In this document: positions 1,083 through 12,782 of the stretch, in pieces
Layout: each line of letters starts with the position of its first letter
Numbering within the stretch: the stretch's first letter is position 1
Virus record (IMG/VR): IMGVR_UViG_3300050821_004202
Span: 1 to 23,973 of that record
DNA: 23,973 nt
DNA from: a virus
Reading direction: 5' to 3' (one strand)
Made by a program: the position numbers and the translations under genes
Notes under the pieces: model-generated
What the model was told of the DNA's origin: nothing
The model's input: only the letters and a program-made list of their open reading frames with translations
The model's database searches: none

Positions 1083-1700
1083 GTGAAGAACCCTACAGAC
1101 ACCCCTCGCCGCACCGCCAGCGCACCGCGTGTCGTCGGCTGGCTGGCCCTGGCGGGCGTCTCCCTCATCGCGGGCATCGCGAGTTACTTCCACGCCCTCG
1201 CCGTCGTCCAGGCCGCGGGCGCGACCGCGCCGGTCTCCTACCTGGTTCCCGCGCTGGCCGACCTGGTTATCCTCGGCGCGTCCGCCGACCTGCTCGCCGC
1301 GAGCCGGTCGAACCAGCCGCGGCCAGCGCTGACCATGACCACGCTCGCGGTCGGCGTCGGCGTCACCCTCGCCATGAACATCGCCGCCGGGGGAGGCCAC
1401 GGCCTGGGCGGACGGCTGGTTTCCGGGTGGCCGGCGCTGGCTTTCACCCTCGCCCTTGAGTCCCTCGCGGGGCTCGTCAGGCGCAGCCGGGACGGCGGCG
1501 TGAGCCCCGTCGTCCCGGCCGCCTCCAGCCAGGAACCGCTGACGGCTGACATGGCATGGAAAGAGCTCGCCGCGCGGGTATCGCAGCGGCAGCTAGCCGA
1601 GCTGCTCGACGTCCCCCGCAGCCGGATACAGGCCATGCCGGAGAAGCTGGCCGGGCTGGTTGCGGAGACGACGCTGAACGGGAGCGGATCCCGTGTCTGA
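1083..1700 (+). CDS. DUF2637 / Spd-like membrane protein with C-terminal helix-turn-helix-like tail
   Basis: A 205-residue protein starting at GTG 1083, 4-5 bp behind AGAGG. Four hydrophobic helices are visible at about residues 17-38, 48-72, 82-102 and 112-132, the DUF2637 layout. Such proteins are common on actinomycete plasmids and AICEs, where some are linked to spreading of transferred DNA within the mycelium. After the membrane part, residues about 157-190 (SQRQLAELLDVPRSRIQA) read like a helix-turn-helix. It overlaps the translocase gene by 8 bp, so the two are surely co-translated; this DUF2637-then-FtsK pairing is the standard order in actinomycete conjugative elements. The exact molecular role is not established. 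Confidence 0.8.
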   Translation: MKNPTDTPRRTASAPRVVGWLALAGVSLIAGIASYFHALAVVQAAGATAPVSYLVPALADLVILGASADLLAASRSNQPRPALTMTTLAVGVGVTLAMNIAAGGGHGLGGRLVSGWPALAFTLALESLAGLVRRSRDGGVSPVVPAASSQEPLTADMAWKELAARVSQRQLAELLDVPRSRIQAMPEKLAGLVAETTLNGSGSRV

Positions 1701-3666
1701 GACCATGCCGCAGGCACCCCTCCACGTCGTCCCGGACCAGCCCGAGCCAGCCGCCAGGCCGGCCACGCCACCGGCAGCCGCACCGCTGCGCCCGGTTCTG
1801 CCCGACTGGCTGCGCACCCGCGAGAACCTCCGCGCCGCGGTCCGCCGCCGCGCCCGCCTCGGCCTGCACGGCACCGCCTTCCACGGGCTGCGGCTCCCGC
1901 TTTACGGCGCGCTGCTGCTGTTCTGGGGCGTGGCCGGCACCGGCTGGCTGTTCCTTGCCTGGCTGCGCTGGTGGCTGTCCCCCGTCCCGCTGTCCGCCCA
2001 CCGGCAGGCGGTGAACGAGGGCTGGCGGTCATGGAACACCCTGCACGGCGTCCACCGCAAGACAGCGAAGGCCCGCGCGCAGATCAGCCTCGCCGTGGCC
2101 GCCGCCGCGGCGCTCGCCGGATGGCTGCTGTGGCACTTCGGCACGCCGCTGGCCCTGTACGCCGCCGGGGCCGCCCTCGTCGTCACCGCGGCGCTCGTCG
2201 CCCGGCCGGAAGGCACGCGGATCGTCACCCCGCACGCCGTGCCCGCCGCGCTGGAGAAGCTCACGCAGGACGTCGTGACGCGGGCGCTCGGCTCGGTCGG
2301 CAATCCGAAGATCGACCGCTGGCTCCGCGAGGGCAAGGAGATCGACTTCATCGGCCCCATCCGCCAGGACGGCCCCGGCTGGCGGTTCGAGTGCAACCTG
2401 CCGTACGGGGCGACCGCAACGGAGATCGTGGAGAAGCGCGCCGAGTTCGCCTCCGGGCTGCGCCGGCCGCTCGGCGCCGTCTGGCCGGAATGCGTCACCG
2501 CCGAGCACCCCGGGCGGCTTGAGGGGTGGGTCGGGCAGGAGGACATCACCAGCCGCAAGCCGGTGCCGTGGCCGCTGCTGAAGTCCGGCACCGCCGACGT
2601 GTTCAAGCCGGTCCCCGCCGGCACCGACACGCGCGGCCGGGGCGTGAAGGCCCCGCTCGTCTACCACAACTGGCTGATCGGCTCGATGCCCCGCAACGGC
2701 AAGACGGGCACCGTCGTCGAGCTCAACGGCGCCATCGCCCTCGACGCGCTGTGCGAGCAGTGGATCCACGAGCTCAAGGGCACCGGCGACCTCGACGCGT
2801 TCGAGCCGCTTTGCGAGCGGTTCATCTCCGGCATCGATGACGCGTCGATCGCCTACGCCGCGGAGTCGCTCGCGAAACTGCGCGCCGAGTGCGAGAAGCG
2901 CGCCCCGCTGATCAAGGCGCTGCCGACCGCGATCTGCCCGCACAAGCGCGTCACCAGGGAGATAGCCGAGAAGTACCGGCGCCTGCGCCCGCTCGCCTGC
3001 ACGATCGACGAGTGCCAGAACCTGTTCGCCCACCCGAAGTACGGCAAGCAGGCAGGCGAGGACGCCGAGTTCGTGATCAAGGTCGGCCCCGCGATGGGCA
3101 TCATCCTGATCCTGGCGACGCAGCGGCCCGACAAGGATTCCCTCCCGAAGGGGATCAGCGCGAACGTGTCGGTCCGCTTCTGCCTGTACGTGGCCGGCCA
3201 GGTCGAGAACGACATGATCCTCGGCACGTCGGCGTACAAGCAGGGCGTCAGGGCGACGATGTTCCGCCCGGAGGTCGACGCCGGCCTCGGCTACCTGAAG
3301 GGCGCGACGCCGGTCCCGCGGGTGATCCGGACCCATTACATGGACGTGGCCGAGCGGCTAGCCGTGGTGGCGCGGGCGCGGGTGCTCCGCGAGCGCGCCG
3401 GGACGCTGCCCGCGGGCAGCGCGGACGCGCCGGAGCGGGACGTCCTGGCCGACGTGCTCGCGGCCATGGGCGGCGACCCGGGCCTGCACTGGGGTGTCCT
3501 TGCCGAGCGGCTCGCGCAGCGGTGGCCCGAGCGGTGGGGCGGCTCGGCTAAGGACGCGGTGAGCATGCAGGTGCAGGCGCTCGGCGTGCCCTCGGTAACG
3601 GTGTCTGTGGGGGGCGTGAAGGCCCGCGGGTGCCGGAAAGACGCCATCGAAGCGGCAATGCGATGA
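1693..3666 (+). CDS. FtsK/SpoIIIE-type DNA translocase (TraB/TraSA-like)
   Basis: A 657-residue ATPase. Hydrophobic segments at about residues 72-92 and 131-170 anchor it in the membrane. The Walker A motif is GSMPRNGKT (330-338), the Walker B TIDE (D439-E440), followed by ILATQRPDK as in FtsK-like RecA motors. The C-terminal stretch from about 583 (LHWGVLAERLAQRW, then KDAVSMQVQALGVPSV and GCRKDAIEAA) is the winged-helix domain found in TraB/TraSA-type proteins, which in the family reads short DNA repeats in the clt locus and moves double-stranded DNA between mycelial cells. The start is GTG 1693, overlapping the DUF2637 gene. A role in conjugal transfer is favoured by length, partner gene and the GGTAACG repeats at its 3' end; a phage-specific DNA segregation role is the alternative. 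Confidence 0.85.
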   Translation: MSETMPQAPLHVVPDQPEPAARPATPPAAAPLRPVLPDWLRTRENLRAAVRRRARLGLHGTAFHGLRLPLYGALLLFWGVAGTGWLFLAWLRWWLSPVPLSAHRQAVNEGWRSWNTLHGVHRKTAKARAQISLAVAAAAALAGWLLWHFGTPLALYAAGAALVVTAALVARPEGTRIVTPHAVPAALEKLTQDVVTRALGSVGNPKIDRWLREGKEIDFIGPIRQDGPGWRFECNLPYGATATEIVEKRAEFASGLRRPLGAVWPECVTAEHPGRLEGWVGQEDITSRKPVPWPLLKSGTADVFKPVPAGTDTRGRGVKAPLVYHNWLIGSMPRNGKTGTVVELNGAIALDALCEQWIHELKGTGDLDAFEPLCERFISGIDDASIAYAAESLAKLRAECEKRAPLIKALPTAICPHKRVTREIAEKYRRLRPLACTIDECQNLFAHPKYGKQAGEDAEFVIKVGPAMGIILILATQRPDKDSLPKGISANVSVRFCLYVAGQVENDMILGTSAYKQGVRATMFRPEVDAGLGYLKGATPVPRVIRTHYMDVAERLAVVARARVLRERAGTLPAGSADAPERDVLADVLAAMGGDPGLHWGVLAERLAQRWPERWGGSAKDAVSMQVQALGVPSVTVSVGGVKARGCRKDAIEAAMR

Positions 3667-3756
3667 GCCGTTACCCGCAGGTCAGCGGCCTGACGGTAAC
3701 GCCAGCCCGCATCTGCCCTGATCAGGAACGGAAACGCTGCCGCTACCGCGGTAACG
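3594..3756. repeat. Array of four GGTAACG heptamers, clt/TRS-like
   Basis: GGTAACG occurs at 3594-3600, 3695-3701 and 3750-3756 on the plus strand and once inverted (CGTTACC) at 3669-3675. The first lies in the last codons of the translocase gene, the others in the 102-bp gap after it. Three of the four are preceded by C. The last copy overlaps the perfect 10-bp palindrome TACCGCGGTA (3744-3753). TraB-type translocases recognise short repeats in a clt locus usually found next to their own gene, so these are candidate recognition sites; they could also be operator sites. Confidence 0.5.
3669..3701 (+). other. Hairpin just downstream of the translocase gene
   Basis: Arms 3669-3683 and 3687-3701 pair at 13 of 15 positions (one G-U) around a 3-base AGC loop, starting 3 bases after the translocase stop codon. 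The outer arms are the inverted GGTAACG pair. No U-run follows, so it is not a standard intrinsic terminator. It may be part of the clt-like locus or a transcript processing or attenuation structure. Confidence 0.45.
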
Positions 3757-3768
3757 CGGAGGATGACC

Positions 3769-4149
3769 GTGGGCTTGCGCATAGCGGCCTCGCTGATGAA
3801 GTGCGGGGCGTGCGGCAAGCGGTACTCCAACCCGCTGACGCACGTCTGCTACAACCCGCGCGGCCGCGGCCCGCGGCTTCAGGTGAAGCCCCGGATCGCC
3901 TACGACTGCCCTGGGTGCGGCAAGCCGGTCACGAACCCGCTGGCTCATGTGTGCAAGGTCCGCACCGACTTCCGCAAGCGGCTGGCCGAGCAGAAGCGGC
4001 GGCAGAAGAAGAAGGGCGCCCCGAAGCCCGCGGCGCCGCAGCACGACTATCACTGCACCGACCCGGACTGTCGCAGGCGGATGTGCCTGGCGTACCGGGA
4101 GGGGCTCGAGGACGGGCGCGCGGAAGCGCTGGAACAGATGGGAGCGTGA
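3769..4149 (+). CDS. Zinc-binding protein with duplicated CxxC...NPL(T/A)HVC motif
   Basis: A 126-residue basic protein. Two copies of one motif are clear: CGACGKRYSNPLTHVC and CPGCGKPVTNPLAHVC, each with four likely zinc ligands (C-x2-C, then H and C). A Lys/Arg-rich linker (KRRQKKK) follows, then a third cysteine cluster, CTDPDCRRRMC. I chose GTG 3769 because GGAGG at 3758-3762 is 6 bp away; an ATG at 3763 sits directly against it. The pattern recalls conserved hypothetical proteins of Streptomyces integrative elements and phages downstream of FtsK genes. It probably binds nucleic acid; function unknown. It precedes the next gene by one base. Confidence 0.75.
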   Translation: MGLRIAASLMKCGACGKRYSNPLTHVCYNPRGRGPRLQVKPRIAYDCPGCGKPVTNPLAHVCKVRTDFRKRLAEQKRRQKKKGAPKPAAPQHDYHCTDPDCRRRMCLAYREGLEDGRAEALEQMGA

Positions 4150-10013: not shown

Positions 10014-12782
10014 TCACAGTCCGATCACGGGCGGCGGCCACAAGGTGATCGCGGCCCCCGCAAGGTGCGACTTCACGACGCCGTTCGCCGACCGGGCGAC
10101 CGTCGCCGTCTGCGGCGAGCTCGAGCCGCTCATCGCGGAGACCGTGACCCGCTCCCCGTCAACCACCCAGCTCAGCGGGTAGTCGCCCGGCAGCACCGAC
10201 CACAGCGGCCCGGTCACGTCCACCTGCCAGGACGTCGCCGTCGTGTTCACGCCCGCGTGCAGCGCCGTGCCGGCCGACTCCACCCGGCTGCTCTGCTGCC
10301 ACACCTGGTACGGCAGCTCCGGCACGCCCGCGACGGCGATCGTCAGCGTGTCGTACCAGAGCGTCTCCGTGATGCCCTGCGCCAGCTGCGTCACCGGCTC
10401 GAAGCCCAGCCGCCGCGGCGGGTTGGCGATCACCAGCCGGTCGCCCAGGTCCATGCTGACTACCGCGTTGTAGATGCCGACGGCGTCCGTGTTCGCGAGG
10501 TCGAGCGTGATGCCGGGCAGCCGCGCCTGGTCGGTGGTGCCGAGGTGCAACTTCCACCCGGCGAGGTCGGGCAGCTGCGAGTCGCTGGCGGCACTGACGC
10601 TGTAGGTCTGCGCGTAGGTGCCCACCCCGCCGCTCGCCGGGCTTGCCGTCGACATCCGGCCGCCGGTGATCGGCTGGCCGGCCGCGGCGTACATGCGCGC
10701 TGAGCTGCCCGAGTCGTTCTGCATGGTGACGTCGTTGACGATGGTCTGGTCATCCCTGGTCGGGGATGCCGTCCACGGCGACAGGTGATCCGAGGTGTAG
10801 GAGGGGGTGACCGTCGCAGCCTGGGAGTAGAGCGCCTTGCGGGTCACGTACCCCCAGCCGAGCACCTGCCGCAACTCCGTCCACACCCCCTGGTCGGCAT
10901 CCGCGCACGCCTGCAGCAGGGTCGTCAGCGTCCCGGCCGGCTGGATGCCCATCGGGACCGTGTCGGCCAGGTTCCCGCGCGTCCGGCAGGGAATGCTGTT
11001 CTCCGCGCACAGCCGGGCGAACCTGGTGCCCGCGGGCTCCGCGAGGTAGGCCGCCAGCGCGGTCCCCAGGCTGTACACGCTGTCCACCACTGACCGCACG
11101 TGCACGTGCCCGATCACCGTGTCAGTCCAGACGCCGGCGAACGGGGGCGTCAGCACCAGGCCGACGTACCCGGCCGCCCCTGTCGCCGCCGTGGTGACGT
11201 TCCCGGTCGCCCCGGCGGACGCGCCGGGGGCGACGCTGCTCACCGCGTAGTTGACGTTGGCGCCGGATGCGGTCGCCTCAATCGACCACAGCTGCGGCTG
11301 CTGCACGCCGCCGAACCACGACATGGGGCCGGTCGTCGCGACGACGGTCACCGCGTCACCTGCGTAGGCGGTCAGGGTCACCGTCCCGTCGGCGTTGATG
11401 ATCAGCGTGATGTACGGCGCGACAGAGGACACCGTGCACACCTGGACCAGCACCTGGCTGGAGCCGGGCAGCGTCGGGATGTCAGTCAGGAACCGCACCG
11501 ACCACTGCGTGCCGCCCGTGTACGCCGGCGCCTGGCCGCCGATGTGCGCGCCGCCGATCGCGGGCAACGGGTTCGAGCACGCGAACACGGTGCTGGACGC
11601 CAGTGCGGGCGTGCCGGCGTTCCACGTCATCGGCGCCCCGCCGATGCCGCTCGCGAACTGGCTGCTGCCAAGCGGGTCTTCCATCGGCCAGTAGGCGACG
11701 AGGCCCGACTGCGTGAGGACCGCCCGGTACATGGCCGACTGCACGTTCGGGGCCCGCTGGGAGAGGCGGCGCAGCAGGCCGCCGCCGACCAGCGGGACGA
11801 GGGCATCGACCGGGACGGAGGTGTTGTTCAGCGCGTCCGCGTTGTACTCCGGCTCCTCCTGCGGCAGCTCAGATGCCTCGAAGTGACCGCGGTAGTCCCG
11901 GTCGCTGATCTCCGCCCCGCCGGCCAGGTTCCACGTGTTCCCGTCGGCGCCAGTCCACGTCACCGTCCCGGCGGCCTGCCCGGAGAACGCGCCGTCCGCG
12001 GCGACGCTGCCGCCGATGCCGTTCAGCATCTGGAACTCGTACACGCGGCCGAGCAGCTGCACCGGCGACGTGATGGCGTTCGCGCTCCAGCCGACGACGA
12101 GCGGGCAGTTCCCGGCGCGGACCGACGTGGCGCCCAGCACGATGCTGGACACCTGCGTCCAGCTCCCGCCGATGGTGGTGCCCGACCAGAAAGACAAGGT
12201 GCCCGTCGTGGTATCCAGCGTCACCCGCAGCGCGAAGTCACCGGAGGTGAACGGGACCGGGACGCCCGACGCGATCCCCCCGTGCTGCGTCCCCCCGGCG
12301 TCCCACCACGAGAAACCCATCTGCCCGTCGTGGCCCATCGTCCACCACCACGACGGCAGCGTGTTGTCGTAGCGGGCGGCGAGCACGCACCCCTGCCAGT
12401 CCGACAGCCGCAGCGCGATACGCAGGTCCAGGCTGGCGGTGACGTGCAGGCTGGCGGTGTCGTTGACGTAGGCGCGGTCTGAGTTGTTCGCTTCCAGCCG
12501 CAGGTAGTTCTGGGCGGCGGGGATGCTGGCGCGGACCGGCATGTTCTGCACGACGTACGGCCACAGGTCCGACATCACGTTGTCTGGCGAATAGCGCGCA
12601 GCGGTGTTGGTCACGGTCGCGCTGAACGTGGACGGGCTGACCGTGGTCGACTCGTCGGGGTGGCCGCGGCCGATGACCCAGGGGCCATGGTCGCAGTCGC
12701 CGGTCACGTCGGTCCAGGTGCCGCCAGCGTTCAGCTCGAGGCGGATGGCGAGCTGCGCGCCGGGAGACGGGAAGGTGGTCAT
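10014..12782 (-). CDS. Large minor tail / baseplate hub protein with lectin-like domains
   Basis: A 922-residue protein from ATG 12782, sharing ATGA with the tape measure stop. The N-terminus (LAIRLELNAGGTWTDVTGD) is typical of actinophage minor tail proteins. A concanavalin/LamG-like sandwich follows at about 95-250 (LRLEANNSDRAYV, WWWTMGHDGQMGFSWWDAGG). A second lectin-like region starts near 360 (AVLTQSGLVAYWPMEDP), and the C-terminal part has hub-like beta-rich segments. Coming directly after the tape measure, this one gene may combine distal-tail and hub roles that many siphoviruses split between separate genes. Glycan binding by the sandwich domains is inferred. No peptidase or hydrolase motif was seen. 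Confidence 0.75.
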   Translation of the reverse strand: MTTFPSPGAQLAIRLELNAGGTWTDVTGDCDHGPWVIGRGHPDESTTVSPSTFSATVTNTAARYSPDNVMSDLWPYVVQNMPVRASIPAAQNYLRLEANNSDRAYVNDTASLHVTASLDLRIALRLSDWQGCVLAARYDNTLPSWWWTMGHDGQMGFSWWDAGGTQHGGIASGVPVPFTSGDFALRVTLDTTTGTLSFWSGTTIGGSWTQVSSIVLGATSVRAGNCPLVVGWSANAITSPVQLLGRVYEFQMLNGIGGSVAADGAFSGQAAGTVTWTGADGNTWNLAGGAEISDRDYRGHFEASELPQEEPEYNADALNNTSVPVDALVPLVGGGLLRRLSQRAPNVQSAMYRAVLTQSGLVAYWPMEDPLGSSQFASGIGGAPMTWNAGTPALASSTVFACSNPLPAIGGAHIGGQAPAYTGGTQWSVRFLTDIPTLPGSSQVLVQVCTVSSVAPYITLIINADGTVTLTAYAGDAVTVVATTGPMSWFGGVQQPQLWSIEATASGANVNYAVSSVAPGASAGATGNVTTAATGAAGYVGLVLTPPFAGVWTDTVIGHVHVRSVVDSVYSLGTALAAYLAEPAGTRFARLCAENSIPCRTRGNLADTVPMGIQPAGTLTTLLQACADADQGVWTELRQVLGWGYVTRKALYSQAATVTPSYTSDHLSPWTASPTRDDQTIVNDVTMQNDSGSSARMYAAAGQPITGGRMSTASPASGGVGTYAQTYSVSAASDSQLPDLAGWKLHLGTTDQARLPGITLDLANTDAVGIYNAVVSMDLGDRLVIANPPRRLGFEPVTQLAQGITETLWYDTLTIAVAGVPELPYQVWQQSSRVESAGTALHAGVNTTATSWQVDVTGPLWSVLPGDYPLSWVVDGERVTVSAMSGSSSPQTATVARSANGVVKSHLAGAAITLWPPPVIGL

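Follow-up and report, generated by a model that had tools for sequence, protein, structure and literature searches.

The locus analyzed here raises the question of what role is played by four copies of the heptamer GGTAACG that are clustered at the 3' end of a gene for a TraB/FtsK-like translocase of double-stranded DNA. The window, by which we mean the whole stretch of 23,973 nucleotides of the IMG/VR virus record IMGVR_UViG_3300050821_004202, had previously been read from sequence alone, and this preliminary description had proposed the cluster as a candidate clt/TRS locus. In our view, the cluster is very likely a clt/TRS-type docking site read by the adjacent translocase, with binding and transfer being inferred. 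We favor this reading because clusters recur at the same place in related loci and because the word changes together with two residues of the translocase.

The translocase and its phage setting

The translocase (657 aa, positions 1693-3666, plus strand) was assigned to phrog_1358 (FtsK/SpoIIIE-like, 2.8e-17) and is 30.8% identical to TraB of pSVH1 over the motor (7e-25), with Walker A (GSMPRNGKTG) and Walker B (LACTIDE) motifs recognized by reading. No Pfam family passed for this protein, and the search of a phage collection returned no relative of it. Its C-terminus (residues ~584-657, positions 3442-3663, plus strand) was predicted by AlphaFold2 to form a winged helix with a mean pLDDT of 83.8 and values above 90 over most of the domain. 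The earlier claim that such a domain is present thus held, while the accompanying claim that it binds the repeats remains inferred and is supported only indirectly, by covariation (see below). The wing, delimited by the AlphaFold2 model and the covariation (positions 3595-3636, plus strand), comprises T636 (codon 3598-3600) and C647 (codon 3631-3633), which are numbered 87 and 98 in the modelled fragment, and its strands were predicted with high confidence. A Foldseek search of the C-terminal model against the PDB gave only weak winged-helix matches, and the FtsK gamma domain was absent from the 50 hits shown.

The start of the translocase gene is overlapped by a gene for a DUF2637 membrane protein (1083-1700, plus strand; PF10935, 2.5e-05). 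With regard to associated Spd (spread) proteins, the only observation is this protein, coupled to the translocase and of unassigned role. The two genes lie on the plus strand and follow, from the left end of the window, a resolvase-type recombinase gene that is cut by the window start and two GntR genes (380-622 and 610-900). Behind the repeats, the next gene encodes a small Cys/His-rich protein without any family match (3763-4149, plus strand, with its start at 3763 or 3769). The HK97-type capsid, protease, tape measure and endolysin genes are found on the minus strand of this virus fragment. With the capsid, protease, tape measure, endolysin and recombinase criteria met, the window represents a temperate tailed phage. 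Among the relatives of the translocase, L001, L004 and L006 are likewise virus records with a capsid gene, and others come from plasmids or chromosomal elements.

Heptamer arrays in the window and behind related translocases

The preliminary description had reported four GGTAACG copies, one of them inverted, within 163 bp (3594-3756) at the 3' end of the translocase gene, and these positions were confirmed exactly. Only copy 1 (3594-3600, plus strand) lies inside the gene, within its last codons. The remaining three are in the gap before the next gene: the inverted copy 2 (3669-3675, minus strand) is located 3 bp past the stop codon, copy 3 (3695-3701, plus strand) follows within the gap, and copy 4 (3750-3756, plus strand) stands just ahead of the ribosome-binding site of the next gene. 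In addition, a variant, GGTAGCG, which is the heptamer of the relative L001, is present at 3741-3747 (minus strand), inverted with regard to copy 4 and 2 bp away from it.

The claim that this number is far above the expectation for a 7-mer held only in part. Within 450 bp round the translocase stop codon, four GGTAACG were found against 0.03 expected (nominal 1.6e-8), and the whole window contains six (two further copies being at 674 and 8938) against 1.09 expected, a number reached in none of 100 shuffles. Yet as many as 17 heptamers of the window have at least four copies within 163 bp, since GC-rich coding repeats inflate such counts; the corresponding means in Markov simulations of order 1 to 3 were 2.2, 1.8 and 4.1. 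Among these 17, GGTAACG is the only one with four or fewer G+C, and a heptamer of this type occurred in 0 of 90 simulated windows. When 410-bp stretches were ranked by their best heptamer cluster, the 3' end of the translocase gene came 10th of 227, with the stretch concerned taking in only three of the four copies. Taken alone, the four copies are thus moderately striking, and it is conservation that decides. A hint of selection on the DNA word itself comes from codon usage, as GTA is used once among the 54 valine codons of the translocase gene, within copy 1. The RNA folding of the translocase 3' region was not more stable than that of shuffles (z -0.78), and a scan for paired GGTAACG across viral contigs gave unspecific matches. 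The lone copy at 674-680 lies within the end of one GntR gene and ~50 bp upstream of the other, smaller one (380-622); it may be a chance occurrence or, possibly, a regulatory site.

A lack of conserved repeats next to related translocase genes had been named beforehand as the result that would refute the idea; this was checked, and the idea survived. Relatives were fetched using the window translocase, and 93 non-redundant ones with enough sequence were retained, comprising AICE-like elements, plasmids and phages. Most of them have a short-repeat cluster behind the translocase gene, with differing words, and ~80 of the 93 reach a nominal 1e-5 for one heptamer. In many loci, chance clusters at other places attain this level too and, therefore, position matters: in 16 of 39 long loci, the cluster behind the translocase outranks every other one of the locus, compared to ~0.4 expected by position. 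As a positive control, the same blind statistic applied to pSVH1 returned its known TRS, GACCCGGA, in 5 copies. The word of the window is shared by the close relative L007 and by the Catellatospora loci L047, L048 and L050 (36-38% protein identity), in which the GGTAACG count proposed as a check in the preliminary description amounts to 7-8 within 180 bp of the stop codon and to 8-9 per whole locus. GGTAGCG is found in L001 (53% identity, 7 copies) and in Nocardioides relatives (6-8 copies), GGTCGCG in Micromonospora relatives (4-8 copies), and mostly palindromic arrays of the GCTAGC/GGTAGCA type in Streptomyces, Glycomyces and Streptosporangiales.

In one clade, the copies follow a near-fixed spacing of 12-18-11-12-about 43-7-67 bp whichever heptamer is used, and they switch together between GGTAACG, GGTAGCG and GGTCGCG. 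The window array has fewer copies and lacks this canonical spacing, so it may be decayed. In seven loci (L047, L048, L044, L045, L054, L001 and L005), the last, inverted copy is located ~157-178 bp past the translocase stop, within the 5' part of the next gene and 66-68 bp from a tandem pair. A second family of arrays, made up of palindromes of the TGCTACCGGTAGCA, CCGCTAGCGG and CTCTAGAG types, was observed past the translocase stop in L012-L043, L305, L327-L346 and L377-L406, and the respective translocases have a wing with an insertion (NRRGI type). Separately, the translocase frame of L427 looks truncated or frameshifted, and the 410-bp stretch scanned downstream of it contains eight copies of CTCCGCA and seven of ATCTCCG.

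Covariation of the heptamer with two wing residues

A translocase that reads the heptamer would be expected to vary in its DNA-binding residues whenever the word varies. We aligned 36 translocases with GGTNNCG arrays and scored all 601 columns. Base 5 of the heptamer is separated without exception by exactly one of these columns, that of T636 in the window (the next best has 3 misfits), with Gly, Thr or Val when the base is A and Asp, Asn, Gln or Ser when it is G. Base 4 is likewise separated without exception by a single column of the 601, that of C647 (1 misfit in the next best), with Ala for C and Tyr, Cys, Val, Leu, Trp, Phe or Ile for A. Both columns fall in the wing of the winged helix. 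The switches were counted on a tree of the motor domain from which the winged helix was excluded: base 5 and the class of residue 636 changed six times each, with 6 of 6 changes coupled (5 of 5 on supported branches), and for base 4 and residue 647, 3 of 3 switches were coupled. An example would be L308, which lies within the Catellatospora group on the tree and is 84% identical to L048, but has GGTAGCG in 6 copies and Ser replacing Gly. The codon of T636 itself is situated inside a copy of the same heptamer that this residue appears to specify.

Several caveats apply to these results. The two residues were spotted by eye ahead of the column scan, and the residue classes are our own grouping, yet no residue is common to two classes. 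The five coupled switches on well-supported branches correspond to a sign test p of 0.06. Among loci added later, the residue rule was right for 4 of 4 with GGTCGCG, though these come from a known clade. In a distant group (L476-L486), bases 4 and 5 agree with the rule in L476, L477, L480-L482, L484 and L485, while L483, with GGTAAAG and Gln, is an exception and L478, L479 and L486 are ambiguous. A prospective test outside the known clades returned almost only the palindromic-array family, in which the wing has an insertion and the alignment column is ambiguous, and to which the rule cannot be applied. The virus contig L408 (IMGVR_UViG_2772190774_000001) encodes a related translocase, followed by GGTTGTG in four copies, whose wing residue, Ala, is outside the set for which the rule was tested.

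Known systems, the docking-site reading and its rivals

TraB together with clt is already known as a kind of system. TraB of pSVH1 is reported to recognize 8-bp TRS repeats at clt, to assemble there as a hexamer and to transfer the plasmid in double-stranded form (PMC4170104; Vogelmann et al. as cited in PMC3583192). The window resembles it in having an FtsK-like translocase with a C-terminal winged helix and short repeats directly behind the gene, and it meets the TraB/clt criteria of an FtsK/SpoIIIE-type motor ATPase, a C-terminal winged helix and conserved 3'-end repeats. It differs in being a phage instead of a plasmid and, as the preliminary description had correctly stated, in its word (GGTAACG versus GACCCGGA). 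The specificity of pSVH1 TraB has been attributed to helix alpha3 (as cited in PMC3583192), whereas the covariation found here is in the wing, and this counts against the wing reading. The clt of pWTY27 takes in 16 bp that belong to traA plus the 159 bp next to it and contains four repeats of 7 bp each, which are footprinted by TraA and needed for transfer (PMC3583192). Its anatomy, in which some of the repeats fall within the final part of the tra gene and others beyond it, is similar to that of the window, so the parallel drawn previously with Streptomyces plasmids is supported in this regard, although the window is a phage fragment, whereas pWTY27 is a theta-type plasmid with the word TGACACC for which translocase binding and the need for transfer were proven experimentally. 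AICEs have been defined by the combination of DUF3631 and a serine recombinase (PMC3218068). The Catellatospora locus L048 has a translocase, a DUF3631 initiator, a serine recombinase and a GGTAACG array, while in the window, where structural genes of a phage are present, an initiator was not seen.

The cluster, its conservation, the concerted switching and the covariation with the translocase are shown here, and the proposal of a clt/TRS candidate is thereby supported. Binding, assembly at the site and a cis requirement for transfer are inferred by analogy with pSVH1 and pWTY27, and no binding or transfer data stand behind the docking-site reading. Given how closely the anatomy matches these two systems, the array most likely serves as a loading site through which the pump is tied to the DNA of its own element. 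In such a mechanism, the C-terminal winged helix would read the heptamers, with residue 636 setting base 5 and residue 647 setting base 4; several bound sites would recruit subunits, so that a hexameric motor would assemble on the DNA of its own element and pump this DNA alone through a membrane or septum. A weaker inference is that the array serves the phage or prophage for transfer of its genome from one cell to another or along hyphae, and conjugation, hyphal spread and segregation are all conceivable uses of the module. A bolder reading, against which we lean slightly, is that the TraB/clt module is functional in temperate actinobacterial phages and lets their double-stranded genome pass between cells (or along hyphae) with no need for virions, the specificity of such modules being reset by one or two wing substitutions with the whole array following.

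Other explanations were considered. The heptamers could serve as operators, either for a GntR-type repressor encoded upstream (at 380-622 or at 610-900) or for a different transcription factor acting on the gene behind the array. Two GntR genes are indeed nearby, with the GGTAACG at 674 upstream of one of them, and copy 4 is at the ribosome-binding site of the next gene. However, L048 and L001 both have full arrays, yet the scan of their flanking ORFs gave no GntR match, 7-8 copies over 170 bp are atypical of a repressor operator, and the base changes follow the residues of the translocase, which leaves this explanation very unlikely. We also give very little credence to replication-origin iterons read by an initiator such as DUF3631. 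Iterons are likewise short clustered repeats, and the Catellatospora elements have downstream a DUF3631 protein whose C-terminal end resembles the translocase wing, but the initiator is 1.5-4 kb from the array and none was seen in the window. Moreover, its motif SDTIRF...KGYR is identical in L048 (GGTAACG) and L045 (GGTAGCG), and thus the initiator does not track the heptamer. Rep and GntR proteins are therefore disfavored as readers of the heptamer, given the unchanged DUF3631 motif and the full arrays without GntR.

As the protein is related to FtsK/SpoIIIE and ends in a winged helix, the repeats could also be polar guide sequences of the KOPS/SRS kind, orienting the motor and not loading it. 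This is highly improbable, as the sites are concentrated behind the gene in both orientations with few elsewhere in the loci, and the criterion of spread sites with biased orientation is not met. Finally, the window cluster could have arisen by chance and have no relation to the arrays in the related loci; the 17 equally clustered heptamers, the rank of only 10 of 227 and the non-canonical spacing would speak for this. Against this, its word is that of the Catellatospora arrays and of L007 and fits the residue rule (T636, C647), and four copies versus 0.03 expected are improbable for a word fixed in advance. Chance as the sole explanation is ruled out by conservation, and a chance origin of the window cluster is hardly credible.

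The DUF3631 proteins (L048:9441-11171 and L045 near 11625-12665) end in SDTIRF...KGYR, a motif similar to the translocase wing, and this resemblance suggests a shared winged-helix type.

Returning to the docking-site reading, what is probably new, within the open-access literature searched, is the GGTAACG specificity, the array geometry, the two-residue wing covariation and the temperate-phage carriers; clt candidates for AICE-like elements are probably new as well. For many AICE-like elements, plasmids and phages, the arrays offer clt candidates that can be put to the test. Two wing residues for two bases would be a simple rule for a change of specificity, by which systems could stay insulated from each other, and the recognition of its own DNA by a one-protein conjugation system becomes testable via small mutant swaps. 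Their presence in phages raises the question of why temperate phages carry such a module. A similar arrangement was observed in pPaSha2 of Pseudonocardia alni (L306; CP052773.1, 1-41938), a phage-like circular element filed as a plasmid, with terminase, portal, prohead protease, capsid and holin genes. As in the window, its DUF2637-translocase pair is opposite lysis and structural genes; unlike in the window, the repeats are weak (CGCTACA in three copies) and behind a small extra gene. pPaSha2 is thus likely to be a phage-plasmid carrying the DUF2637-translocase module.
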